Origin: Phaeospirillum sp.
Lineage (GTDB): Bacteria > Pseudomonadota > Alphaproteobacteria > Rhodospirillales > Magnetospirillaceae
Reading direction: 5' to 3'
DNA length: 33,430 nucleotides
Assembly (NCBI GenBank): GCA_030824585.1
Contig: JAVBXM010000219.1
Location: forward strand, 1 to 33,430
Numbering within the stretch: position 1 is the stretch's first letter; every line of letters starts with the position of its first letter. Below are positions 8,696-31,337 of the stretch, piece by piece. A model generated the notes under the pieces. It was not told where the DNA came from, ran no database searches, and saw nothing but the letters and a program-made list of their open reading frames with translations. Position numbers and translations under genes: made by a program.

Positions 8696-8779
8696 TTCAC
8701 CACGAAGGCACGAAGGCACGAAGAGGAGGGAGGAAGGAATCTCCCTGTTTTCTTCATGCCTTCGTGCCTTCGTGGTGAA
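8696..8779. repeat. 28-bp inverted repeat (long hairpin) between glycosyltransferase genes
   Basis: Arms at 8696-8723 and 8752-8779 match at 27 of 28 positions around a 28-base spacer. Each arm is built from reiterated cacgaagg units. It lies 11 bases after the stop of GT9 copy 2 and could act as a transcription terminator or processing site. I recognise the spurious peptide it would encode (HHEGTKARR...) as one that recurs in many unrelated bacterial genomes, so it is likely a widespread dispersed repeat rather than a local structure. Confidence 0.85.
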
Positions 8780-10179: not shown

Positions 10180-11541
10180 ATGGCATTGGTTAATGCACAC
10201 AAACTGATCGACGAGGCCAAGTTCGGGAAGTTCCACTGGAACGTCCTGTTCTGGACCGCGTTGATCATCATTTTCGACGGCTACGATCTGGTCATCTACG
10301 GCGTGGTCCTGCCGGTTCTGATGAAAGAATGGCAACTGGACCCCATCCAGGCCGGGGCGCTCGGCAGCTATGCCCTGTTCGGCATGATGTTCGGGGCGCT
10401 GACCTTCGGCTCGCTGTCCGACCGCTTCGGGCGCAAGCCGATCATCGCCGTCTGCGTCGTGCTGTTCAGCCTGTTCACGGTGCTGAACGGCTTCGTCCGC
10501 GACACCACGGAATTCGCGGTCTGCCGCTTCATCGCCGGCCTGGGCATCGGCGGCGTGATGCCCAACGCGGTGGCGCTGATGACCGAATACGCGCCCAAGC
10601 GGCTGCGCAGCACCCTGGTGGCCGTGATGTTCAGCGGCTATTCGGTGGGTGGCATGCTGTCGGCGGGCCTGGGCATGACGCTGATTCCCGCCTTCGGCTG
10701 GCAGGCCGTCTTCTTCGTGGCGGCGGTTCCCCTGCTGCTGCTGCCGATCACCCTGTATCTGCTGCCGGAATCCATCGGCTTCCTGATCAAGGCCGGCCGC
10801 ACCGGGGAAGCCATCGACAAGCTGGCTCGGCTGGAGCCGTCCTACACGCCGCAGCCCGGCGACGAGATCGCCTTTCCCACCGGCGCCACCGGCCAGGCGT
10901 CGCTGCCGGCCCTGTTCGCCGGCGGCCGCGGCCTCTCCACGGTGATGTTCTGGGTCGCCTTCTTCATGTGCCTCTTGATGGTCTACGCCCTGGGCTCCTG
11001 GCTGCCCAAGCTGATGAACAATGCCGGCTATGGCCTGGGGTCGAGCCTGAGCTTCCTGCTGGTGCTGAACTTCGGCGCCATCTTCGGCGCGGTGGGCGGC
11101 GGCTACATCGCCGACCGCATGAACCTGAAGCGCGTCCTGGTGACGTTCTTCGTGGTCGCCGCCATCTCCATCAGCCTGCTGGGCGTGAAAAGCCCGACCA
11201 TGGTGCTCTATGTCCTGGTGGCGGTGGCCGGCGCCACCACCATCGGCACCCAGATCCTGCTCTACGCCTATGTGGCGCAGTTCTACCCCATGGCCATCCG
11301 CTCCACCGGCATCGGCTGGGCCTCGGGCGTGGGGCGCAGCGGCGCCATCCTCGGTCCGATGCTGGGCGGGACGCTGCTGGCCTGGAAGCTGCCGCTGATG
11401 CAGAACTTCATGGCCTTCGCGGTGCCCGGCGTGATCGCCGCCGTGGCCATGAGCCTGGTGGTGCGCAGCGCCCAGCATACCCCGGCGGAAGAAAAGGACC
11501 TGGCCTTCGCCGCCGAGACCGGGATGATGGAACCCGATTGA
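10180..11541 (+). CDS. MFS aromatic acid:H+ symporter (AAHS family, BenK/PcaK-like)
   Basis: 453 residues and about twelve hydrophobic segments. The start at ATG 10180 is chosen because GGAGGGA lies nine bases upstream; an in-frame GTG at 10162 overlaps that ribosome site. Family marks: F-D-G-Y-D-L-V-I-Y-G in the first membrane segment (the D-G-x-D typical of AAHS permeases), the MFS loop motif G-S-L-S-D-R-F-G-R-K-P near residue 80, a GLGIGGVMPNAVALMTEYAP segment, and S-T-G-I-G-W-A-S-G-V-G-R-S-G-A near residue 375. Relatives import benzoate, 4-hydroxybenzoate or protocatechuate with protons. No aromatic-degradation genes are nearby, so the substrate is open. Confidence 0.88.
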   Translation: MALVNAHKLIDEAKFGKFHWNVLFWTALIIIFDGYDLVIYGVVLPVLMKEWQLDPIQAGALGSYALFGMMFGALTFGSLSDRFGRKPIIAVCVVLFSLFTVLNGFVRDTTEFAVCRFIAGLGIGGVMPNAVALMTEYAPKRLRSTLVAVMFSGYSVGGMLSAGLGMTLIPAFGWQAVFFVAAVPLLLLPITLYLLPESIGFLIKAGRTGEAIDKLARLEPSYTPQPGDEIAFPTGATGQASLPALFAGGRGLSTVMFWVAFFMCLLMVYALGSWLPKLMNNAGYGLGSSLSFLLVLNFGAIFGAVGGGYIADRMNLKRVLVTFFVVAAISISLLGVKSPTMVLYVLVAVAGATTIGTQILLYAYVAQFYPMAIRSTGIGWASGVGRSGAILGPMLGGTLLAWKLPLMQNFMAFAVPGVIAAVAMSLVVRSAQHTPAEEKDLAFAAETGMMEPD

Positions 11542-11548
11542 GGCGGAG

Positions 11549-11573
11549 ACCCGGTCTCGTCATGAGACCGGGT
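11549..11573 (+). terminator. Hairpin terminator after transporter gene
   Basis: A perfect 10-bp stem (11549-11558 with 11564-11573) with loop gtcat begins eight bases past the transporter stop. There is no T-run, because the dispersed structured repeat begins directly after it. Probably the 3' end of the transporter transcript. Confidence 0.65.
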
Positions 11574-11574
11574 T

Positions 11575-11649
11575 AGGCCCAAGGGGCCGCGCGGCTTATG
11601 CCGCGGGAGCCAAGCCCCACGGAGGTGGGGCGCCCGGCGCCTGAGGACG
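11575..11649 (+). repeat. Structured intergenic repeat, copy A
   Basis: Starts aggcccaaggggccgcgcgg. Three consecutive hairpins can be drawn: ggccc-aag-gggcc; cgcggc-ttat-gccgcg (11590-11595 with 11600-11605); and gccccac-ggag-gtggggc (11614-11620 with 11625-11631). It ends with cgcccggcgcctgagg. It lies between the convergent transporter and glnD genes. Four relatives occur in this window. Stem 3 differs completely in sequence from copy C but is still fully paired. Confidence 0.85.
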
Positions 11650-11656
11650 GGAAATA

Positions 11657-11683
11657 CAAGGCGGCGGCTATTCCGCCGCCTTG
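11657..11683 (-). terminator. glnD terminator hairpin containing the stop codon
   Basis: A perfect 11-bp stem (11657-11667 with 11673-11683) with loop ctatt. Read on the minus strand, the 5' arm is the last coding part of glnD and the TAG stop lies in the loop/3' arm junction. The transcript then continues into tatttccc. This is a compact terminator that shares bases with the coding region. Confidence 0.7.
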
Positions 11684-14445
11684 GTTCCGTCGGCCGTCTT
11701 GGCGGCGGGGTCTTCGAGGGCGGCCAGCAGGGCGGTCTTGATCTGCTCCAGCTTGCGGTCGTGCTCGATCTTATGGCCGAACACGTCCTTGACGTAGAAC
11801 ACGTCCACCACCCGCTCGCCATAGGTGGAGATGTGGGCCGAGGAAATCTGCAGCCCCACATTGGTCATGGCGTTGGTGATGTCGTAGAGCAGCCCGGGCC
11901 GGTCGCGGCCGTTGACCTCGACCACGGTGTGGGAGCGGGACGGCTTGTTGTCGACCAGCGCGCGGGGCGGCACCTTGAAGACGTGGGCGCGGGACGGCAG
12001 CTTGCCCTTGCGCGCTGCCAGCTCGCGGTCGAGGCGCAGGCGGCCGGACAGCACCTGTTCGACGCAGGTGGCCAGCTTGGCCAGCTTGGCCGGGCTGTCG
12101 AAGGCGCCGCCGTCGGAATCCTGGATGCAGAAGGTGTCGAGCGCCATGCCGTTGGCCAGGGTGATGATCTTGGCGTCGACGATGTTGGCGCCCGATACCG
12201 CCATGGCGCCGGCGATCTGCGAGAACAGGCCGGGATGGTCGCCGGTATAGACGATGATCTCGGTGACGGCGCGGTGGGAATCCACCCGGGGCTCGACGGT
12301 GAGCGGGGCGCGCACCGCCTCGGCCTCGCGCACCAGGCGGGCGTGGCGCAGGTGGATCGGCGTGTCGAAGGTGGTCCAATAGGTGGAATAGCCGCGCGCG
12401 ATATGGGCCTCGATGTCCTCGGGCGGCCAGGACAGCTTGAACAGTTCGGCGCGCAGGGCATCCTGGGCGGCCTTGACCCGGGCGGCGCGCGCCGTGCCCG
12501 ACAGGCCGCCGGTCATCACCTCCATGGCCCGCGAGTACAGTTCGCGCAGCAGGCCGGCCTTCCAGGCGTTCCACACGGTGGGGCCCACGGCGCGGATATC
12601 GGCGACGGTCAGGCAGAGCAGCAGCCGCAGGCGCTCGGGCGACTGGACCAGGGCGACGAAGTCGGAAATGGTCTTGGGATCGTCGATATCGCGCTTGAAG
12701 GCGATACGGCTCATGGACAGGTGTTCGCGCACCAGCCAGGCGGCGGATTCCGTTTCCTCGTCGGTCAGCCCCAGGCGCGGCCCCAACTTCATCACCACCT
12801 CGGCCCCCAGGGCGGAATGGTCGCCACCCCGTCCCTTGGCGATGTCGTGGCAGAACACCGCGATGAACAGGGCGCGGCGCGACACCACCTGATGGATCAC
12901 CTCGGTGCAGGTGGGGGCCTCGTCCTTGAGATCGCCGCGCTCGAGGGCGTGCAGCACGCCCAGCGCCTGCACCGTGTGCTCGTCCACGGTGTAGACATGG
13001 TACATGTCGTACTGCATCTGCGCGACGACGCGGCCGAAATCCGGGATGAAGCGGCCCAGCACCCCGGCCTCGTTCATGTGGCGTAGGGCCACTTCCGGGT
13101 TCTTGCGCGACGTCACCATCTCGACGAACAGCCGGTTGGCGTTGGCGTCGACCCGCAGCGCCGCGTCGATGCGCTTGAGATTGCGGTGGACCAGATCCAG
13201 GGCGTGGGGGTGGATGTCCACCTCCTGGGTCAGCGCGGTGTGGAACAGGCGGATCATGGCCGCGGGATCGGTCTCGAACTGGTTGGCGGCGGTGACGTCC
13301 AGGCGTCCGCCCTCCAGTTGGAAGCCGGCCACCATGGTGCGGCGCGAGAACAGGCGGCCCAACTGCAGCCGGCGCGGCTTGCTCTTGAAGGTCTCCTCGG
13401 TCAGGGCGCAGAACAGCCGGGTCAGGTCGCCCACGTCCTTGGCGATCAGGAAGTAGTGCTTCATGAAGCGCTCGACCCCGCGCGAGCAGGCGCGGTCGGC
13501 ATAGTGCATGCGCACCGCGATCTCGGGCTGCACGTCGAAGGTCAGGCGGTCCTCGGGCCGGTCGGTCAGGTAGTGCAGGTGGCAGCGCACCGCCCACAGG
13601 AAGGCCTGGGCCTTGGCGAAGCGCCGCGCCGCCGGGCGCGAGATGATGCCCTTCTCGGCCAGTTCCGAGACGTCCTCGACCCGATAGACGTACTTGGCGA
13701 TCCAGTACAGCGTATGCAGGTCGCGCAGGCCGCCCTTGCCCTCCTTGACGTTGGGCTCCAGCACATAGCGGGAATCGCCCATGCTGGAATGCCGGGAATC
13801 CCGCTCGGCCAGCTTGGATTCCACGAAGGCCTCGGCGGTGCCGTTCATGATCTCGGCGCAGTAGCGGGCCCACAAATCGTCGAACAGCGCCCGGTCGCCC
13901 CACAGCCAGCGCATTTCCAGCAGGGCGGTGCGGATGGTCAGGTCGGCCTTGGCGTTGCGCACGCAATCCTCGGCCGAGCGGGTGGAGTGCCCGACCTTCA
14001 GCCCCATGTCCCACAGCATGTAGAGGATGAACTCCACCACCTGCTCGTGATAGGGCGTGCGCTTGTAGGGCAGCAGGAACAGCAGGTCGATGTCGGAATG
14101 GGGCGACAGCTCGCCGCGCCCATAGCCGCCCACCGCCACCAGGCTCATGCTCTCGCCCGTCGTGCGCACCCCTTGGGGAAACTCGCGGTCGCAGGCGTAG
14201 TCGTGGACCAGACGGACCAACTGGTCGATCAGGAAGCAGTTCTCGCGCACCGTGGCGGTGCCGTCGCCGTGGGCATCGAAGCGGGCGCGCACCTCGGCGC
14301 GGCCGGCGGCCAGCACCTGCTTGAAGATCTCGAGGACCTTCATCCGCCGCTTGTTCTTGGGCAGGTCCTCGTCCACCAGTCCGTCCAGCCGGGCGATGAC
14401 CGCCTGGCGGTTGATGATGGCGCGCTGGCCTTTGATCTTGCTCAT
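11668..14445 (-). CDS. glnD: [Protein-PII] uridylyltransferase / uridylyl-removing enzyme
   Basis: 925 residues, within the normal GlnD range. GlnD senses glutamine, uridylylates PII under nitrogen limitation and removes UMP when nitrogen is ample. Domains in order: a nucleotidyltransferase domain with GGYGRGELSPHSDIDL from residue 106; a central PII-uridylyltransferase region (EPNVKEGKGGLRDLHTLYWI); an HD phosphohydrolase domain with F-C-H-D-I-A-K-G-R-G-G-D-H near residue 530; and two C-terminal ACT domains (TGDHPGLFSQIAGAM near 730 and GRDRPGLLYDITNAM near 842) that bind glutamine. All catalytic motifs are intact. It is monocistronic, with the terminator at its stop codon. Confidence 0.97.
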   Translation of the reverse strand: MSKIKGQRAIINRQAVIARLDGLVDEDLPKNKRRMKVLEIFKQVLAAGRAEVRARFDAHGDGTATVRENCFLIDQLVRLVHDYACDREFPQGVRTTGESMSLVAVGGYGRGELSPHSDIDLLFLLPYKRTPYHEQVVEFILYMLWDMGLKVGHSTRSAEDCVRNAKADLTIRTALLEMRWLWGDRALFDDLWARYCAEIMNGTAEAFVESKLAERDSRHSSMGDSRYVLEPNVKEGKGGLRDLHTLYWIAKYVYRVEDVSELAEKGIISRPAARRFAKAQAFLWAVRCHLHYLTDRPEDRLTFDVQPEIAVRMHYADRACSRGVERFMKHYFLIAKDVGDLTRLFCALTEETFKSKPRRLQLGRLFSRRTMVAGFQLEGGRLDVTAANQFETDPAAMIRLFHTALTQEVDIHPHALDLVHRNLKRIDAALRVDANANRLFVEMVTSRKNPEVALRHMNEAGVLGRFIPDFGRVVAQMQYDMYHVYTVDEHTVQALGVLHALERGDLKDEAPTCTEVIHQVVSRRALFIAVFCHDIAKGRGGDHSALGAEVVMKLGPRLGLTDEETESAAWLVREHLSMSRIAFKRDIDDPKTISDFVALVQSPERLRLLLCLTVADIRAVGPTVWNAWKAGLLRELYSRAMEVMTGGLSGTARAARVKAAQDALRAELFKLSWPPEDIEAHIARGYSTYWTTFDTPIHLRHARLVREAEAVRAPLTVEPRVDSHRAVTEIIVYTGDHPGLFSQIAGAMAVSGANIVDAKIITLANGMALDTFCIQDSDGGAFDSPAKLAKLATCVEQVLSGRLRLDRELAARKGKLPSRAHVFKVPPRALVDNKPSRSHTVVEVNGRDRPGLLYDITNAMTNVGLQISSAHISTYGERVVDVFYVKDVFGHKIEHDRKLEQIKTALLAALEDPAAKTADGTKAAE

Positions 14446-14574
14446 GGTCGGGTGCCGTCACCGCAGGAATTCGAGGGGCCGATTATAGGCGTCGGACGCC
14501 GCCAGCCGCCAGCCCCTTCGGACGCGGATTGGGCATACGGCGGCCATTGCCTGACATTTGGGCACTACACCGGC

Positions 14575-14637
14575 AAGCGCAAGGCGCGCCGCGGCTTATG
14601 CCGCGAGAGCCAAGCGAAGCGCCCGGCGACCGAGGGC
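14575..14637 (+). repeat. Structured intergenic repeat, copy B
   Basis: A relative of copy A in the glnD-cobO gap. Stem 1 is gcgc-aag-gcgc instead of ggccc-aag-gggcc, a paired change. Stem 2 is the common cgcggc-ttat-gccgcg. Stem 3 is nearly lost (gccaagcgaagcgcccggcg). The copy ends about ten bases from the cobO stop. Confidence 0.75.
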
Positions 14638-14647
14638 CCGGCGACAG

Positions 14648-15259
14648 CTAAAATTCCACCCCCGCCTGGGCCTTGATGCCGTCCTTGAACGGGTGCTTCA
14701 CCATGGTCATCTCGGTGACCAGGTCGGCGGCCTCGATCAGCGGGGGCAGGGCGTTGCGTCCGGTCAGCACCACATGCTGGCCCTCGGGCCGCCTCCGGAC
14801 GGCGTCCAGCACCGTTTCCAGCGGCAGGTACTCGTAGCGCAGCGCCACGTTGATCTCGTCGAGGATCACCATCTTGTATTCGGGATCGGCCAGCAGGGCG
14901 GCGGCCAGGTCCCAGGCCCGCTCGGCGGCGGCGATGTCGCGGGCGCGGTCCTGGGTCTCCCAGGTGAAGCCCTCGCCCATGGCGCGAAAGGTGACCAGCT
15001 CGCCCAGGCCTTCCATCACCCGGCGTTCGGCGGTGTCCCAGGCGCCCTTGATGAACTGGACGATGCCCACCTTCATGCCGTGGCCGACACAGCGGATCGC
15101 CATGCCGAAAGCGGCGGTGGACTTGCCCTTGCCCGCCCCGGTGTGGACGATCACCACGCCGCGCGCTCCGGTCTTCCTGGCCATCAGTTTATCGCGCGAG
15201 GCCTTCTTCTTGGCCATTTTCTCGCGGTGGCGCTGGTCGTGGTCCTGGTCCTCGGTCAT
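14648..15259 (-). CDS. cobO: Cob(I)yrinic acid a,c-diamide adenosyltransferase
   Basis: 203 residues of the CobO/BtuR family, which transfers the adenosyl group of ATP to cob(I)yrinic acid or cobalamin to make the coenzyme form of vitamin B12. Evidence: the P-loop variant H-T-G-A-G-K-G-K-S-T-A-A-F-G near residue 40, V-G-I-V-Q-F-I-K-G-A-W near residue 65, E-G-F-T-W-E-T-Q-D near residue 96, and V-I-L-D-E-I-N-V-A-L near residue 133. The charged N terminus (DQDHDQRHREKMAKKKASRD) is typical. It stands alone, with no other cobalamin genes nearby and no B12 riboswitch visible in the 146 bases upstream. Confidence 0.95.
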   Translation of the reverse strand: MTEDQDHDQRHREKMAKKKASRDKLMARKTGARGVVIVHTGAGKGKSTAAFGMAIRCVGHGMKVGIVQFIKGAWDTAERRVMEGLGELVTFRAMGEGFTWETQDRARDIAAAERAWDLAAALLADPEYKMVILDEINVALRYEYLPLETVLDAVRRRPEGQHVVLTGRNALPPLIEAADLVTEMTMVKHPFKDGIKAQAGVEF

Positions 15260-15405
15260 GGTCTCTCCGGCGGGAAGGGGCGGTTCGCCATAGATGGCGA
15301 GCGGGGGGTGGGGTTCAAGACTGAAACAAATCCTTCACGTTCTTCCCGTTGCGTCCAGCGGTATAAGCCCTGCGGGTCCAGGGATGGATGTGGAATTTGA
15401 GACGC

Positions 15406-16182
15406 ATGGCAGAACAATCGGCCCAGCCAAAAATGACCGCCCGCGAGCTTGCTGTCCATTATGGCGGAAAGCCAGCCCTGAAGGGTGTCGACCTGGATAT
15501 CGCGGCGGGCGAGGTGACCGCCCTGATCGGCCCGTCGGGCTGCGGCAAGTCGACTTTCCTGCGCTGTCTCAACCGCATGAACGACACCATCCCCGCCGCG
15601 CGGGTGAGCGGGCGGGCCGCCCTGGACGGCGAGGAGATCTATGGCTCCGCCGGCATGGACCCGGTGTTGCTGCGCGCCCGGGTCGGCATGGTGTTCCAGC
15701 GGCCCAACCCCTTCCCCAAGTCCATCTACGACAACGTGGCCTTCGGCCCGCGCCTGCACGGCCTGGCGGCCGAGGGCGAGGAGATGGAAGCCCTGGTCCG
15801 CACCAGCCTCGAGCGGGCCGGGCTGTGGAAAGAGGTCAAGGACGTGCTGGGCAGCCAGGGCACCGGCCTGTCGGGTGGCCAGCAGCAGCGCCTGTGCATC
15901 GCCCGCGCCATCGCCGTGGCGCCCGAGGTGATCTTGATGGACGAGCCCTGTTCGGCGCTGGACCCCATCGCCACGGCGCGCATCGAGGAGCTGATCGACG
16001 AGCTGCGGGACTCCTTCACCATCGTCATCGTCACCCATTCCATGCAGCAGGCGGCCCGCGTGTCGCAAACCACCGCCTTCTTCCACCTGGGCGATATCGT
16101 CGAGGTGGGCGTCACCGAACAGATTTTCACGGCGCCCGCCAGTTCGCTGACCCAGGGCTACATCACCGGCCGCTTCGGCTGA
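15406..16182 (+). CDS. pstB: Phosphate ABC transporter ATP-binding protein PstB
   Basis: 258 residues from the ATG at 15406; an in-frame ATG at 15388 (preceded by aggga) would add six residues. PstB is the ATPase of the high-affinity phosphate importer PstSCAB. Walker A is GPSGCGKST at residues 42-50, the Pst-specific Q-loop region reads [15 protein letters not shown], the signature is L-S-G-G-Q-Q-Q-R, Walker B is V-I-L-M-D-E-P, and the switch His lies in T-H-S-M-Q-Q-A. It is followed by phoU 140 bp downstream, as in classical pst operons, but the permease genes pstS, pstC and pstA are absent. Divergent cobO lies directly upstream. Confidence 0.95.
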
Positions 16183-16207
16183 GACCGGGCCTCCTCGAGG
16201 TCCGGCC

Positions 16208-16281
16208 AGGCCCAAGGGGCCGCGCGGCTTAGGCCGCGGGAGCCAAGCGCGCGGAGGCGCGCGCCCGGCGCTTGAGGGGCT
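16208..16281 (+). repeat. Structured intergenic repeat, copy C
   Basis: Lies between pstB and phoU, which run in the same direction. Stem 1 is the same as copy A. Stem 2 is cgcggc-ttag-gccgcg. Stem 3 is gcgcgc-ggag-gcgcgc (16247-16252 with 16257-16262), fully paired but with different bases from copy A (ccccac/gtgggg) and the same ggag loop. An imperfect hairpin precedes it (about 16186-16203). Confidence 0.85.
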
Positions 16282-16322
16282 CTTTGACCAAGGAGCCCCA
16301 GTATGAAAGAGGAGTGACCCAC

Positions 16323-17042
16323 ATGACCACCATCGGCGAACCGCATATCGTCAAATCCTACGATTCCGAACTGGCCCGCCTCGACGATTCCCTGGCCCGC
16401 ATGGGCGGGCTGGCCGAGGCCCAGATGGCCGCCGCGCTCGATGCGCTCGAGGCCCGCGACAGCGATCTGGCCACCCGGGTGATGGAGAACGACGCCCAGG
16501 TGGACGCCGTCGAGGCCTTCGTCAACGAGCAGACGGTACGGGTGCTGGCGCTGCGCGCGCCGGTGGCCGACGACCTGCGCACCGTGGTGGCGGCGCTGAA
16601 GATCGCCGGCGAGATCGAGCGCATCGCCGACCTGGCGGCCAACGCCGCCAAGCGGTCGCTGGTGCTCAACCGCCTGCCGCCGGTCGAGCCCATGCGCTCG
16701 CTGCTGCGGCTGGGCCGGCTGGCGCTCGGCCTGGTCAAGGAGGTGATGGACGCCCATCTCGGCCACGACGCGGTCCGGGCCCTGGCGGCGCGCGACCGCG
16801 ACCAGGAGATCGACGACGTCTACGCCTCGCTGTTCCGCGAGATCCTCACCTATATGATGGAGGACCCCAGGAACATCACGCCGTGCTCGCACCTGATGTT
16901 CATCGCCAAGAATTTCGAGCGTATCGGCGACCACGCCACCAACATCGCCGAGCTGGCCCATTTCCGCATTCTCGGCCGGGCGGCGCTGCAGCAGCGGCCC
17001 AAGAAGGACGATTCGTCCTTCGTGGGCGCCGATCCGGAATAA
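16323..17042 (+). CDS. phoU: Phosphate signalling complex protein PhoU
   Basis: 239 residues. PhoU links the Pst transporter to the PhoR-PhoB two-component system and damps the phosphate-starvation response. The start is ATG 16323, preceded by aggag eight bases upstream; the frame extends to 16272 without a better site. The two repeated three-helix PhoU modules carry the metal-binding type motifs K-I-A-G-E-I-E-R-I-A-D near residue 99 and K-N-F-E-R-I-G-D-H-A-T-N near residue 196. The N-terminal segment S-Y-D-S-E-L-A-R-L is also typical. It follows pstB, separated by repeat copy C. Confidence 0.95.
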   Translation: MTTIGEPHIVKSYDSELARLDDSLARMGGLAEAQMAAALDALEARDSDLATRVMENDAQVDAVEAFVNEQTVRVLALRAPVADDLRTVVAALKIAGEIERIADLAANAAKRSLVLNRLPPVEPMRSLLRLGRLALGLVKEVMDAHLGHDAVRALAARDRDQEIDDVYASLFREILTYMMEDPRNITPCSHLMFIAKNFERIGDHATNIAELAHFRILGRAALQQRPKKDDSSFVGADPE

Positions 17043-17043
17043 G

Positions 17044-17065
17044 GCCAAGCTCTTTTGGGCTTGGC
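17044..17065 (+). terminator. Hairpin after phoU
   Basis: Stem gccaagc / gcttggc (17044-17050 with 17059-17065) with loop tcttttgg starts two bases after the phoU stop. Repeat copy D follows directly, as copy A follows the transporter terminator. Confidence 0.55.
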
Positions 17066-17066
17066 T

Positions 17067-17130
17067 AGGCCCAAGGGGCCGCGCCGCTTATGCGGCGGGA
17101 GCGGAGGCCCGCGCCCGGCGACGGAGGGGC
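17067..17130 (+). repeat. Structured intergenic repeat, copy D
   Basis: Lies between the convergent phoU and pit genes. Stem 2 is cgccgc-ttat-gcggcg (17082-17087 with 17092-17097). Compared with the other copies, one G-C pair is flipped to C-G by changes on both sides, while the ttat loop is unchanged. Stem 3 is shortened. Confidence 0.8.
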
Positions 17131-17143
17131 TGGAAAAGATGCC

Positions 17144-18145
17144 TTACCAGAAGTAGGTGGACAGCCAGTAGAACAGGGCGGCCACCGATCCCGACGCCGG
17201 AATGGTGATCACCCAGGCGACCACGATGTTGCCGGCGATGTGCCAGCGCACCGCCGACACCTTGCGGGCCGCGCCGACGCCGATGATGGCGCCGGTGATG
17301 GTATGGGTGGTCGAGACCGGAATGCCCAGCCAGGTGGCGCCGAACAGGGTGATGGCCCCGCCGGTCTCGGCGCAGAAGCCCTGAACCGGCCGCAGGTCGG
17401 TGATCTTGGAGCCCATGGTCTTGACGATGCGCCAGCCGCCGAACAGGGTGCCCAGGCCCATGGCGATCTGGCAGGTGATGGCCACCCACAGCGGCACGTG
17501 GAAGGTGTCGCCCAGCATGCCCTGGCTGAACAGCAGGACGGTGATGATGCCCATGGTCTTCTGGGCGTCGTTGCCGCCGTGGCCCAGGGAATACATGGCC
17601 GCCGAGAAGAACTGCAGCACCCGGAAGCGCTGGTCCACGGCGAAGGGGGTGGTGCGGCGGCACAGCCACGACACGGCCAGCACCAGGATCATGGCCAGCA
17701 GCAGGCCGATCAGCGGCGACAGGATGATGGCCGAGCCGGTCTTGATGAAGCCGGACATGACCAGGGCGGCCAGGCCGCCCTTGGCGATGCCGGCTCCGGC
17801 GATGCCGCCGATCAGGGCGTGGGAGCTGGACGAGGGGATGCCCAGGCCCCAGGTGACGACGTTCCACGTGATGGCGCCCACCAGGGCGCCGAAGATCACA
17901 TGGGTGTCGATCAGGCCGGGCTGGACGATGCCGGTGCCGATGGTCTTGGCCACGCTGGTGGTGAAGAACAGCAGGGCGATGGTATTGAAGAACGCCGCCC
18001 AGGCCACCGCGTATTTGGGTGACAGCACCCGGGTCGACACCACCGTGGCGATGGAATTGGCCGCGTCGTGCAGGCCGTTCAGGAAGTCGAACACCAGGGC
18101 CGTGATGACCAGGGCGACGATGATGGGAAAGGCGACGGATTCCAT
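17144..18145 (-). CDS. pit: PiT family inorganic phosphate transporter
   Basis: 333 residues with about ten membrane segments, on the short side for bacterial PiT. It is a low-affinity, proton-coupled permease for metal-phosphate. The duplicated signature is seen as FLNGLHDAANSIATVVSTRV near residue 22 and G-H-G-G-N-D-A-Q-K-T-M-G near residue 190. Further conserved parts are WGLGIPSSSSHALIGGIAGA and LGIPVSTTHTITGAIIGVGA, the two S-S-S-H / S-T-T-H repeats of the family. It ends with a W residue at the membrane boundary. It is second in an operon nine bases after the DUF47 gene, an arrangement known as orfA-pit in rhizobia. Confidence 0.95.
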   Translation of the reverse strand: MESVAFPIIVALVITALVFDFLNGLHDAANSIATVVSTRVLSPKYAVAWAAFFNTIALLFFTTSVAKTIGTGIVQPGLIDTHVIFGALVGAITWNVVTWGLGIPSSSSHALIGGIAGAGIAKGGLAALVMSGFIKTGSAIILSPLIGLLLAMILVLAVSWLCRRTTPFAVDQRFRVLQFFSAAMYSLGHGGNDAQKTMGIITVLLFSQGMLGDTFHVPLWVAITCQIAMGLGTLFGGWRIVKTMGSKITDLRPVQGFCAETGGAITLFGATWLGIPVSTTHTITGAIIGVGAARKVSAVRWHIAGNIVVAWVITIPASGSVAALFYWLSTYFW

Positions 18146-31176: not shown

Positions 31177-31220
31177 GGCGCCGCTATAATCCTGTCATGG
31201 TGATCGTTCCGATCACCGGA

Positions 31221-31290
31221 GCCCTCGGGCGCCGGGCGGGCGCGAGCGCCCTTGGCTTCCGCGGCACAAGCCGCGCGGCCCCTTGGGCCT
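31221..31290 (-). repeat. Structured intergenic repeat, copy E (inverted)
   Basis: The minus strand reads aggcccaaggggccgcgcgg at its start. Stem 2 is cgcggc-ttgt-gccgcg and stem 3 is gggcg-ctcg-cgccc, a third different but fully paired version. It lies between divergent tsaB and the dipeptidase gene, so it cannot be a 3'-end terminator for either. Confidence 0.8.
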
Positions 31291-31337
31291 GCCCATGTTT
31301 CGAGGGCTTCGAACCATGGTATTACCCGCCACGGGGC

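Follow-up and report, generated by a model that had tools for sequence, protein, structure and literature searches.

Intergenic hairpin repeats in Phaeospirillum as probable copies of a MITE-like mobile element

Several short intergenic sequences in a 33,430-nt stretch of Phaeospirillum sp. DNA (contig JAVBXM010000219.1 of assembly GCA_030824585.1; 'the window' below) resemble one another and can each be folded into a series of hairpins. The question raised by this locus is whether such repeats are parts of the neighbouring transcripts or have been inserted as DNA. The repeats are very probably copies or remnants of a non-autonomous mobile DNA element with a multi-hairpin body, resembling a miniature inverted-repeat transposable element (MITE). 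As in MITEs, there are terminal inverted repeats (not visible in copies that consist of the core only), a target duplication of fixed length, 3 bp, and empty sites. Mobility, with these three features, is what is missing from the original prediction, which was made from the window sequence alone and described four repeats of up to three hairpins each.

The repeat family, its core and its complete form

The first direct-repeat family in the repeat list of the window comprises copies A (11575), B (14575), C (16208) and D (17067), which stand as predicted, as one family at these four positions; a covariance model adds a fifth copy, E (Table 1). The model, R1, was built from 79 aligned copies: three short copies, and 76 picked by hand out of 117 regular-expression matches in the loci collected. 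In the genome to which the window belongs, R1 gives at least 87 matches at E ≤ 0.01 (150 of 10,875 first-look candidates were scored). A blastn search of the same genome with copy C gives 41 matches (40 of 80 candidates scored), and the 3' motif CCGGCGMYTGAGGG, with at most one mismatch allowed, gives 103, versus 10 with a reversed control. An exact pattern scan over named genomes returned at least 109 stretches, 80 among the matches listed; in two of them, L064 (from Vibrio) and L071, the pattern is not surrounded by a core, and both are regarded as chance matches. Copies A to E are members of a genuine repeat family, above chance, and the 64-75 nt originally delimited are only the core of a larger element. 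The doubt attached to the original prediction, that no further copies might exist genome-wide, is thereby removed.

The core consists of hairpins H2, H3 and H4, in that order, followed by an unpaired tail, YTGAGGG. H2 is GGCCC-AAG-GGGCC with variants. The loop of H3 is TTAT in most copies of the window's genome, TGAT in G036 (a genome from another genus of the same family) and different again in Niveispirillum. H4 is made up of GCC, an internal loop (AA/GCCC) and a stem of variable length, frequently with the loop GGAG, GGAT or GGAC. Since CTTATG and portions of the H3 and H4 ends were required by the search pattern and the regular expression, the invariance of these columns in named copies is in part built in; the covarying positions were left free. 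Of the sequences proposed as shared by the four original copies, cgcccggcg is indeed in all of them, but aggcccaaggggccgcgcgg is exact in A and C only (B has aagcgcaaggcgcgccgcgg and D has ...gccgcttatgcggcgg).

The stems of the core covary. In 79 distinct rows, 96.2% of 1155 stem cells are paired. Double-sided changes occupy 227 cells versus 79 in shuffles (0 of 500 shuffles reach 227), one-sided changes are nearly absent (3 cells), and the covariation score is 0.439, versus 0.094 for shuffled alignments and about 0.05 when the partners are slid. The possibility that the shared bases reflect chance G+C-rich similarity is refuted by this result. Stem covariation is equally expected for RNA hairpins and for hairpins of single-stranded DNA. 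Among the rare stem mismatches, G-U outnumbers A-C (46 vs 14, p 4e-5); therefore, the folded sense strand, whether RNA or single-stranded DNA, seems to matter. The RNA fold z-scores against shuffles are -3.6 for A, -3.9 for C and -3.1 for D, and -0.7 for the short copy B. The consecutive short hairpins originally proposed for the core are borne out by the best DNA folds of A and C, which are plain hairpin rows; as RNA, A and C are best folded into branched structures, and neither B nor D adopts the hairpin row as its best fold, be it as RNA or as DNA.

Immediately 5' of the core is an extra hairpin, H1, with a copy-specific sequence. A strong H1 is present at 130 of 261 cores, versus 10 of 783 shuffles and 6 of 251 windows taken 300 nt upstream, and the 130 have 113 distinct arms. 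The start of H1 lies preferentially, and by a wide margin, 1-2 nt past a stop-like triplet, copy A being an exception with a spacing of 7 nt. The hairpins before A, C and D had been interpreted as separate, terminator-like structures. Because of the preferred distance to a stop-like triplet, and because the hairpin is missing from empty pstB-phoU sites, they are instead H1, the first hairpin of the element itself.

Full copies contain H1, the core and often a 3' hairpin, H5, and in many of them the terminal inverted repeats TACCAA...TTGGTA are found. Where both ends are present, the element starts with TACC or GACC right after TAA, TTA or TGA (rarely TCA, TAG or CTA) and ends with the inverted repeat ..TTGGTA, after which the triplet is repeated. 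Lengths are mostly 144-148 and 172 nt, with 45 of the 48 listed lengths within 132-172; window copy C has 121. The complete element of G036 runs from the left end TACCAAGTCGCGATGAG through H1, the core and H5 (TTGATCGG..CCGATCAA or similar) to the right end ..TTGGTA, and the bodies of the copies read there are near-identical. Its left end, with at most 3 mismatches, has 182 matches in that genome versus 13 with a reversed control, and core-less palindromic forms with the same ends also exist (L225, L239). Several Magnetospirillum-type loci have the same complete form, and so does G037, a genome from another family of the class.

Target duplications and empty sites

Among the 50 copies with a recognised right end, 34 are flanked by an exact 3-bp duplication (TAA in 15, TTA in 12 and TGA in 7). 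Matches of 4 bp occur in 0 of 50 and shifted positions give 0-1 of 50; when triplets of different copies are paired, the random expectation is 24.65% (p 1.3e-10). Other duplications are TAG/TAG (L024), CTA/CTA (window copy B) and TCA/TCA (L125, left out of the count because its right end was not recognised). In 20 of the 34 cases the duplicated triplet is the stop codon of a called gene. The same holds for 13 of 23 duplications in G036, against a background of 72 of 836 TNA sites (8.6%; p 7e-9), the 836 being those at stops or in non-coding DNA of the loci concerned. Genes were called with our own script, and the calls were checked in the window only. Selection against other insertions may contribute to the stop-codon pattern.

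Nearly all placed copies lie outside genes: of 303 distinct copies, 237 have a gene on either side, 65 are at the edge of a locus and a single one is in a called gene. The 237 placed copies comprise 92 between convergent genes, 72 that run with both neighbours, 52 that run against both and 21 between divergent genes. Relative to the 710 gaps longer than 60 nt, convergent positions are enriched (92/237 copies vs 152/710 gaps) and divergent positions are depleted (21/237 vs 163/710).

For comparison with the window sites, 14 stretches were taken from 13 relatives of the genus. All 13 have the flanks of site C, between pstB and phoU; the site is occupied in three (G481, G474 and G470) and empty in ten. 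In an empty site such as that in L318, GGCTGA is followed directly by GGGAGATTATCCGCATG, whereas in the window 121 nt separate GGCTGA from TGAAAGAGGAG. Since the insertion is missing from 10 of the 13 relatives, it is no conserved part of pho regulation; the originally suggested role in pstB-phoU transcript processing would be confined to genomes with the insertion, where copy C may change the transcript. At site B, G481 has the empty sequence GGGCACTAAAA, and the window has CTA, 80 nt and CTA again, on the stop codon of cobO. The window B insertion is in 0 of the 11 relatives read there (G474, G475 and G477 hold other sequence). Site D, also read in 11 relatives, has a truncated copy in G481 and an independent, oppositely oriented copy, between TAG and TAG, in G473; no core is seen in the remaining relatives, with other sequence in G476, G474 and G478. 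Site A is readable in two relatives, and the copy is present in G481 and absent from G474.

Copies in the window, other forms and distribution

The features of the five window copies are collected in Table 1. Copy C is composed of H1, H2, H3, H4, the tail CTTGAGGGG, an H5-like hairpin (GGGGCTC...GAGCCCC) and the end AGTA. Relative G481 has the same H1 as copy A and a nearly identical core. Copy B is antisense to both of its neighbours, cobO and glnD. Copy E has a decayed right end; its two neighbours, tsaB (-) and a dipeptidase gene (+), have their starts facing it. The neighbours glnD, cobO, pstB and phoU were assigned by profile; a probable major facilitator superfamily (MFS) transporter of aromatic-acid type and a Pit-like transporter score below the model cut-off.

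Table 1. Coordinates of the repeat features in the window
Feature	Position	Strand	Basis and context
Copy A, H1, 10-bp hairpin ACCCGGTCTC/GAGACCGGGT	11549..11573	+	Sequence and fold; 7 nt past the stop codon of the MFS transporter
Copy A, core H2-H3-H4 and tail CCTGAGG	11574..11649	+	R1 88 bits, E 1.3e-18
Copy B, left duplication CTA	14565..14567	+	Matches CTA at 14648-14650; empty site GGGCACTAAAA in G481
Copy B, shortened element of 80 nt, no H1	14568..14647	+	R1 63.6 bits; empty site; at the cobO stop codon
Copy B, right duplication = TAG stop codon of cobO	14648..14650	-	Sequence; gene by NCBIfam
Copy C, left duplication = TGA stop codon of pstB	16180..16182	+	Sequence; pstB by TIGR00972
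Copy C, whole insertion of 121 nt	16183..16303	+	R1 75 bits; absent in 10/13 relatives; DNA fold is a hairpin row
Copy C, right duplication TGA	16304..16306	+	Sequence compared with empty sites
Copy D, H1 GGCCAAGCTCTTTTGGGCTTGGC	17043..17065	+	Directly past the phoU TAA stop (17040-17042); similar H1 at the same site in G481
Copy D, core with shortened H4, right end not recognisable	17065..17130	+	R1 49 bits
Copy E, core	31220..31292	-	R1 71.1 bits
Copy E, left end TACCATGG... with H1	31293..31321	-	Sequence; TAA before it at 31324-31322

Other repeats were also seen. In the glnD-cobO gap of G474 (L316), a 32-nt palindrome lies beside a reverse-complement partial element, near the same stop codon as window copy B; the contents of the gap suggest an insertion hot spot. 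The window itself has, at 8696-8779 between two called genes, a 29-nt inverted repeat of a different kind (TTCACCACGAAGGCACGAAGGCACGAAGA, 97% complementary).

Two further types of copy occur in the window's genome. In one (L030, L032, L035, L021), H4 and the tail are all that is present, and before them stands a recurring sequence of the ATGAGCGAGGCG... type, readable as a short intergenic open frame, which may represent a repeated leader peptide or a repeat of its own. In the other (L033, L029, L036, L022), a hairpin such as GCGGCCATTGAGGCCGC is joined to H4, and the copy ends with GGCGAGGG and has no YTGAGGG tail. Tandem arrays of the element with a period of about 82-110 nt are found in L001 and L002 (the end of contig C247 and the start of contig C196 of the window's genome), at G481:C1:518229-518466 and in L082; those of the window's draft genome sit at contig ends.

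At E ≤ 1e-5, R1 matches are found in 19 of 241 Alphaproteobacteria genomes (the window's own included) and in 11 of 249 genomes of a phylum sample; both counts are lower bounds because at most 20 candidates were scored per genome. The matches in the phylum sample are all inside Alphaproteobacteria, the share of that sample outside the class not being stated. Three relatives of the genus whose genomes are closed or almost so, in 1-2 contigs, yield 45, 34 and 73 matches (E ≤ 1e-4), and Erythrobacter rubeus has 11 at E ≤ 0.01. In the scan of named genomes, nearly all titles among the matches listed are alphaproteobacterial; two contigs of a metagenome-assembled genome labelled Stygiobacter have real copies (L058, L085) and are perhaps mis-binned. 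At the limits used, plasmid records gave one match (Niveispirillum) and the phage records searched gave none. The distribution is patchy, and relatives differ widely in copy number.

Interpretation and significance

For a mobile element of the MITE type, a transposase encoded elsewhere would act on the terminal repeats, make cuts staggered by 3 bp at T(A/T/G)A-like sites and paste the element there. Because the duplicated triplet is often a stop codon, the gene would retain its end and tolerate the insertion. More tentatively, given the excess of G-T over A-C among the stem mismatches, the sense single strand might also matter in its folded state, either as a transfer intermediate or as a transcript. 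An inserted copy would add stable hairpins to the 3' end of the neighbouring transcript; any effect on expression would be a by-product.

Several observations weigh against this reading. Sixteen of the 50 copies with a recognised right end have no identical triplets (four of the 16 are in tandem pairs), and 11 further copies have no recognised right end. TACCAA ends are missing from the Erythrobacteraceae copies and from 13 of the 14 printed copies in G147, taken as Niveispirillum, where the exception, L246, has TACCAA-type ends on both sides and a TAA/TAA duplication; in the window's genome, both ends and the duplication are found together in few copies (L014, L024 and window C, with B lacking TACCAA ends). 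The terminal anatomy is therefore established for part of the family only. A transposase was also sought, in two transposase families and in sampled loci, and none was found: exact TACCAA/TTGGTA ends surround the gene at none of 26 DDE_Tnp_1 loci from five of six genomes (at L367/L378 of G139, TACCAA and TTGGTA are about 640 nt apart, with triplets that do not match), a PF07592 (ISAzo13-type) profile matched nothing in 6 genomes, with its control equally silent, and among 328 sequences scanned for paired ends with a spacing of 500-3000 nt the single match was unrelated. Finally, the window and the three occupied relatives have four different H1 at site C, each well paired, between flanks that are 84-94% identical. 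With H1 wholly different between species, simple descent of one insertion is insufficient: either H1 was exchanged as a whole, or the stop codon received more than one insertion. The right end AGTA/TGA is common to three of the four, which favours a single insertion with H1 turnover for those three; the independent copy of G473 at site D shows that sites are also hit repeatedly. At sites A and D, H1 is the same or similar between the window and G481.

An alternative from the RNA side is that the repeats are cis-acting mRNA 3'-end structures (terminators, stabilisers or processing sites) under selection at the level of the transcript. The preference for a folded sense strand among mismatches would fit such a role, as would the enrichment at convergent and depletion at divergent gene ends. 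On the same side, four genomes (L046, L078, L098, L113; labels Sphingomonadales, Erythrobacteraceae or Alphaproteobacteria) share a copy together with its flank. Along co-directional genes, copies run in the sense direction in 22 of 30 cases in the window's genome and in 11 of 11 in G036, but the named genomes have no bias (22 vs 28), the overall figure is not clearly biased (72 vs 52, p 0.09), and window copy B is antisense to both neighbours. G-U pairs, moreover, make up only 0.8% of H4 and 2.1% of H1 in 266 distinct cores, versus 7.3% in 13 tRNAs from the same loci (the H3 share is 0.2%, but most H3 pairs never vary). In the printed copies, read by eye for Rho-independent terminators and with no terminator program, H1 is followed by TTAGGCCC/CTAGGCCC and the like with no T-run, and the element tail runs into GAGGG, also with no T-run. 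Sites are not conserved inside the genus, and exact 3-bp duplications are not predicted for RNA structures. We consider this explanation quite unlikely. Movement as repetitive extragenic palindromic (REP) sequences or bacterial interspersed mosaic elements (BIMEs), mobilised by a REP-associated tyrosine transposase (RAYT, a Y1 transposase), is highly improbable. The repeats are likewise intergenic, palindromic and multi-copy, and the window's genome has one Y1_Tnp gene, but this small gene (L037:1203-1820, 181 aa) is flanked by inverted repeats of another sequence, GGAGCGCGGGCGTCCCGCCCGC and its near reverse complement, and not by the present element; the identity as REP of a resident RAYT-like gene was rejected on this basis. 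REP/RAYT movement is not known to produce 3-bp duplications. Repeats similar to GGAGCGCGGGCGTCCCGCCCGC were seen in the glnD-cobO gap of relative G475 (L318).

A variant compatible with a MITE-like origin holds that the core itself is the mobile or recognised hairpin unit, targeted to gene ends, and that the TACCAA-ended MITE is a later vehicle that captured it. Cores without TACCAA ends in Niveispirillum and Erythrobacteraceae point this way, as do the core-less palindromic forms and the G473 copy next to phoU, which starts at H1, stops after the tail and has TAG-TAG flanks and no TACCAA ends. In copies that do not start with TACC, too, stop-like triplets are most frequent 1-3 nt ahead of H1; this class includes G036 copies, which peak at -6. 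Core-only copies could, however, be decayed or diverged MITEs, and a core-only 3-bp duplication is seen in single cases (window B and G473); the variant is rather doubtful. Equally tentative is a broader proposal, of a mobile family across much of the class. The mobility machinery would recognise its core in folded form, as single-stranded DNA or RNA, and the elements would be directed to stop codons of either strand, with the stop triplet duplicated and the host gene preserved, and lineages would equip the core with different ends; the H4 internal loop and the tail would then be kept, the stems exchanged in matched pairs and H1 rapidly replaced.

Other identities were considered for the repeats. 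With Rfam 15, the window has 0 matches above the gathering threshold, and positions 11500-17200 have one unrelated weak match (E 1.3). GTTAGGC-type motifs mark the end of integron attC sites, and a GTTAGGC in some of the repeats resembles such an end; this candidate was rejected on reading the copies, in which the bases vary (GGTTAGG, GGCTAGG, GGCCAGG) and no partner box is seen. A replication-strand bias is expected under single-strand transposition; none was found for 71 of the 73 matches in the closed genome G481, with 351 of 1000 random strand assignments as extreme.

Among known systems, the bacterial MITEs include ERIC, RUP and the NEMIS/Correia elements. Like these, the present element is short and gene-less, with terminal inverted repeats, a short target duplication and many intergenic copies in a patchy distribution. 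Unlike them, it has a 3-bp duplication at TAA/TTA/TGA that is often the stop codon itself, a chain of hairpins with covarying arms, and a core found under record titles of several alphaproteobacterial orders. IS1031/ISL2-type insertion sequences of the IS5 family use 3-bp TNA targets, much like the duplications here, but no insertion sequence with TACCAA ends is among the DDE_Tnp_1 loci described above. REP sequences and BIMEs, by the general definition of REP given in PMC12306157, are similarly extragenic, palindromic and multi-copy; compared with those that have a RAYT, the present element is not tied to a resident Y1 gene and has several distinct hairpins and 3-bp duplications. RIME and the long intergenic repeats of Caulobacter type, cited in PMC1273637, are likewise intergenic mosaic or palindromic repeats of Alphaproteobacteria, a likeness at the level of description. 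The mitochondrial double-hairpin and repetitive hairpin elements presented in PMC2800124 are also repeated, possibly mobile intergenic hairpins, but the sponge elements in that account keep their stems and vary their loops, whereas the present element varies its stems in matched pairs and keeps the H4 internal loop and the tail. In open-access searches (listings, the starts of abstracts and a few passages), we encountered no description of the present element.

If a mobile element lands on stop codons while sparing the genes, it would have a safe niche in compact genomes. With dozens of copies per genome in the genus of the window, hairpins have been added to many gene ends, and several copies lie at the ends of draft contigs. 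Sites with and without the element offer natural allele pairs in which to test the effect of 3' hairpins, and the matched-pair changes in the stems raise a testable question, namely how the arms are exchanged.

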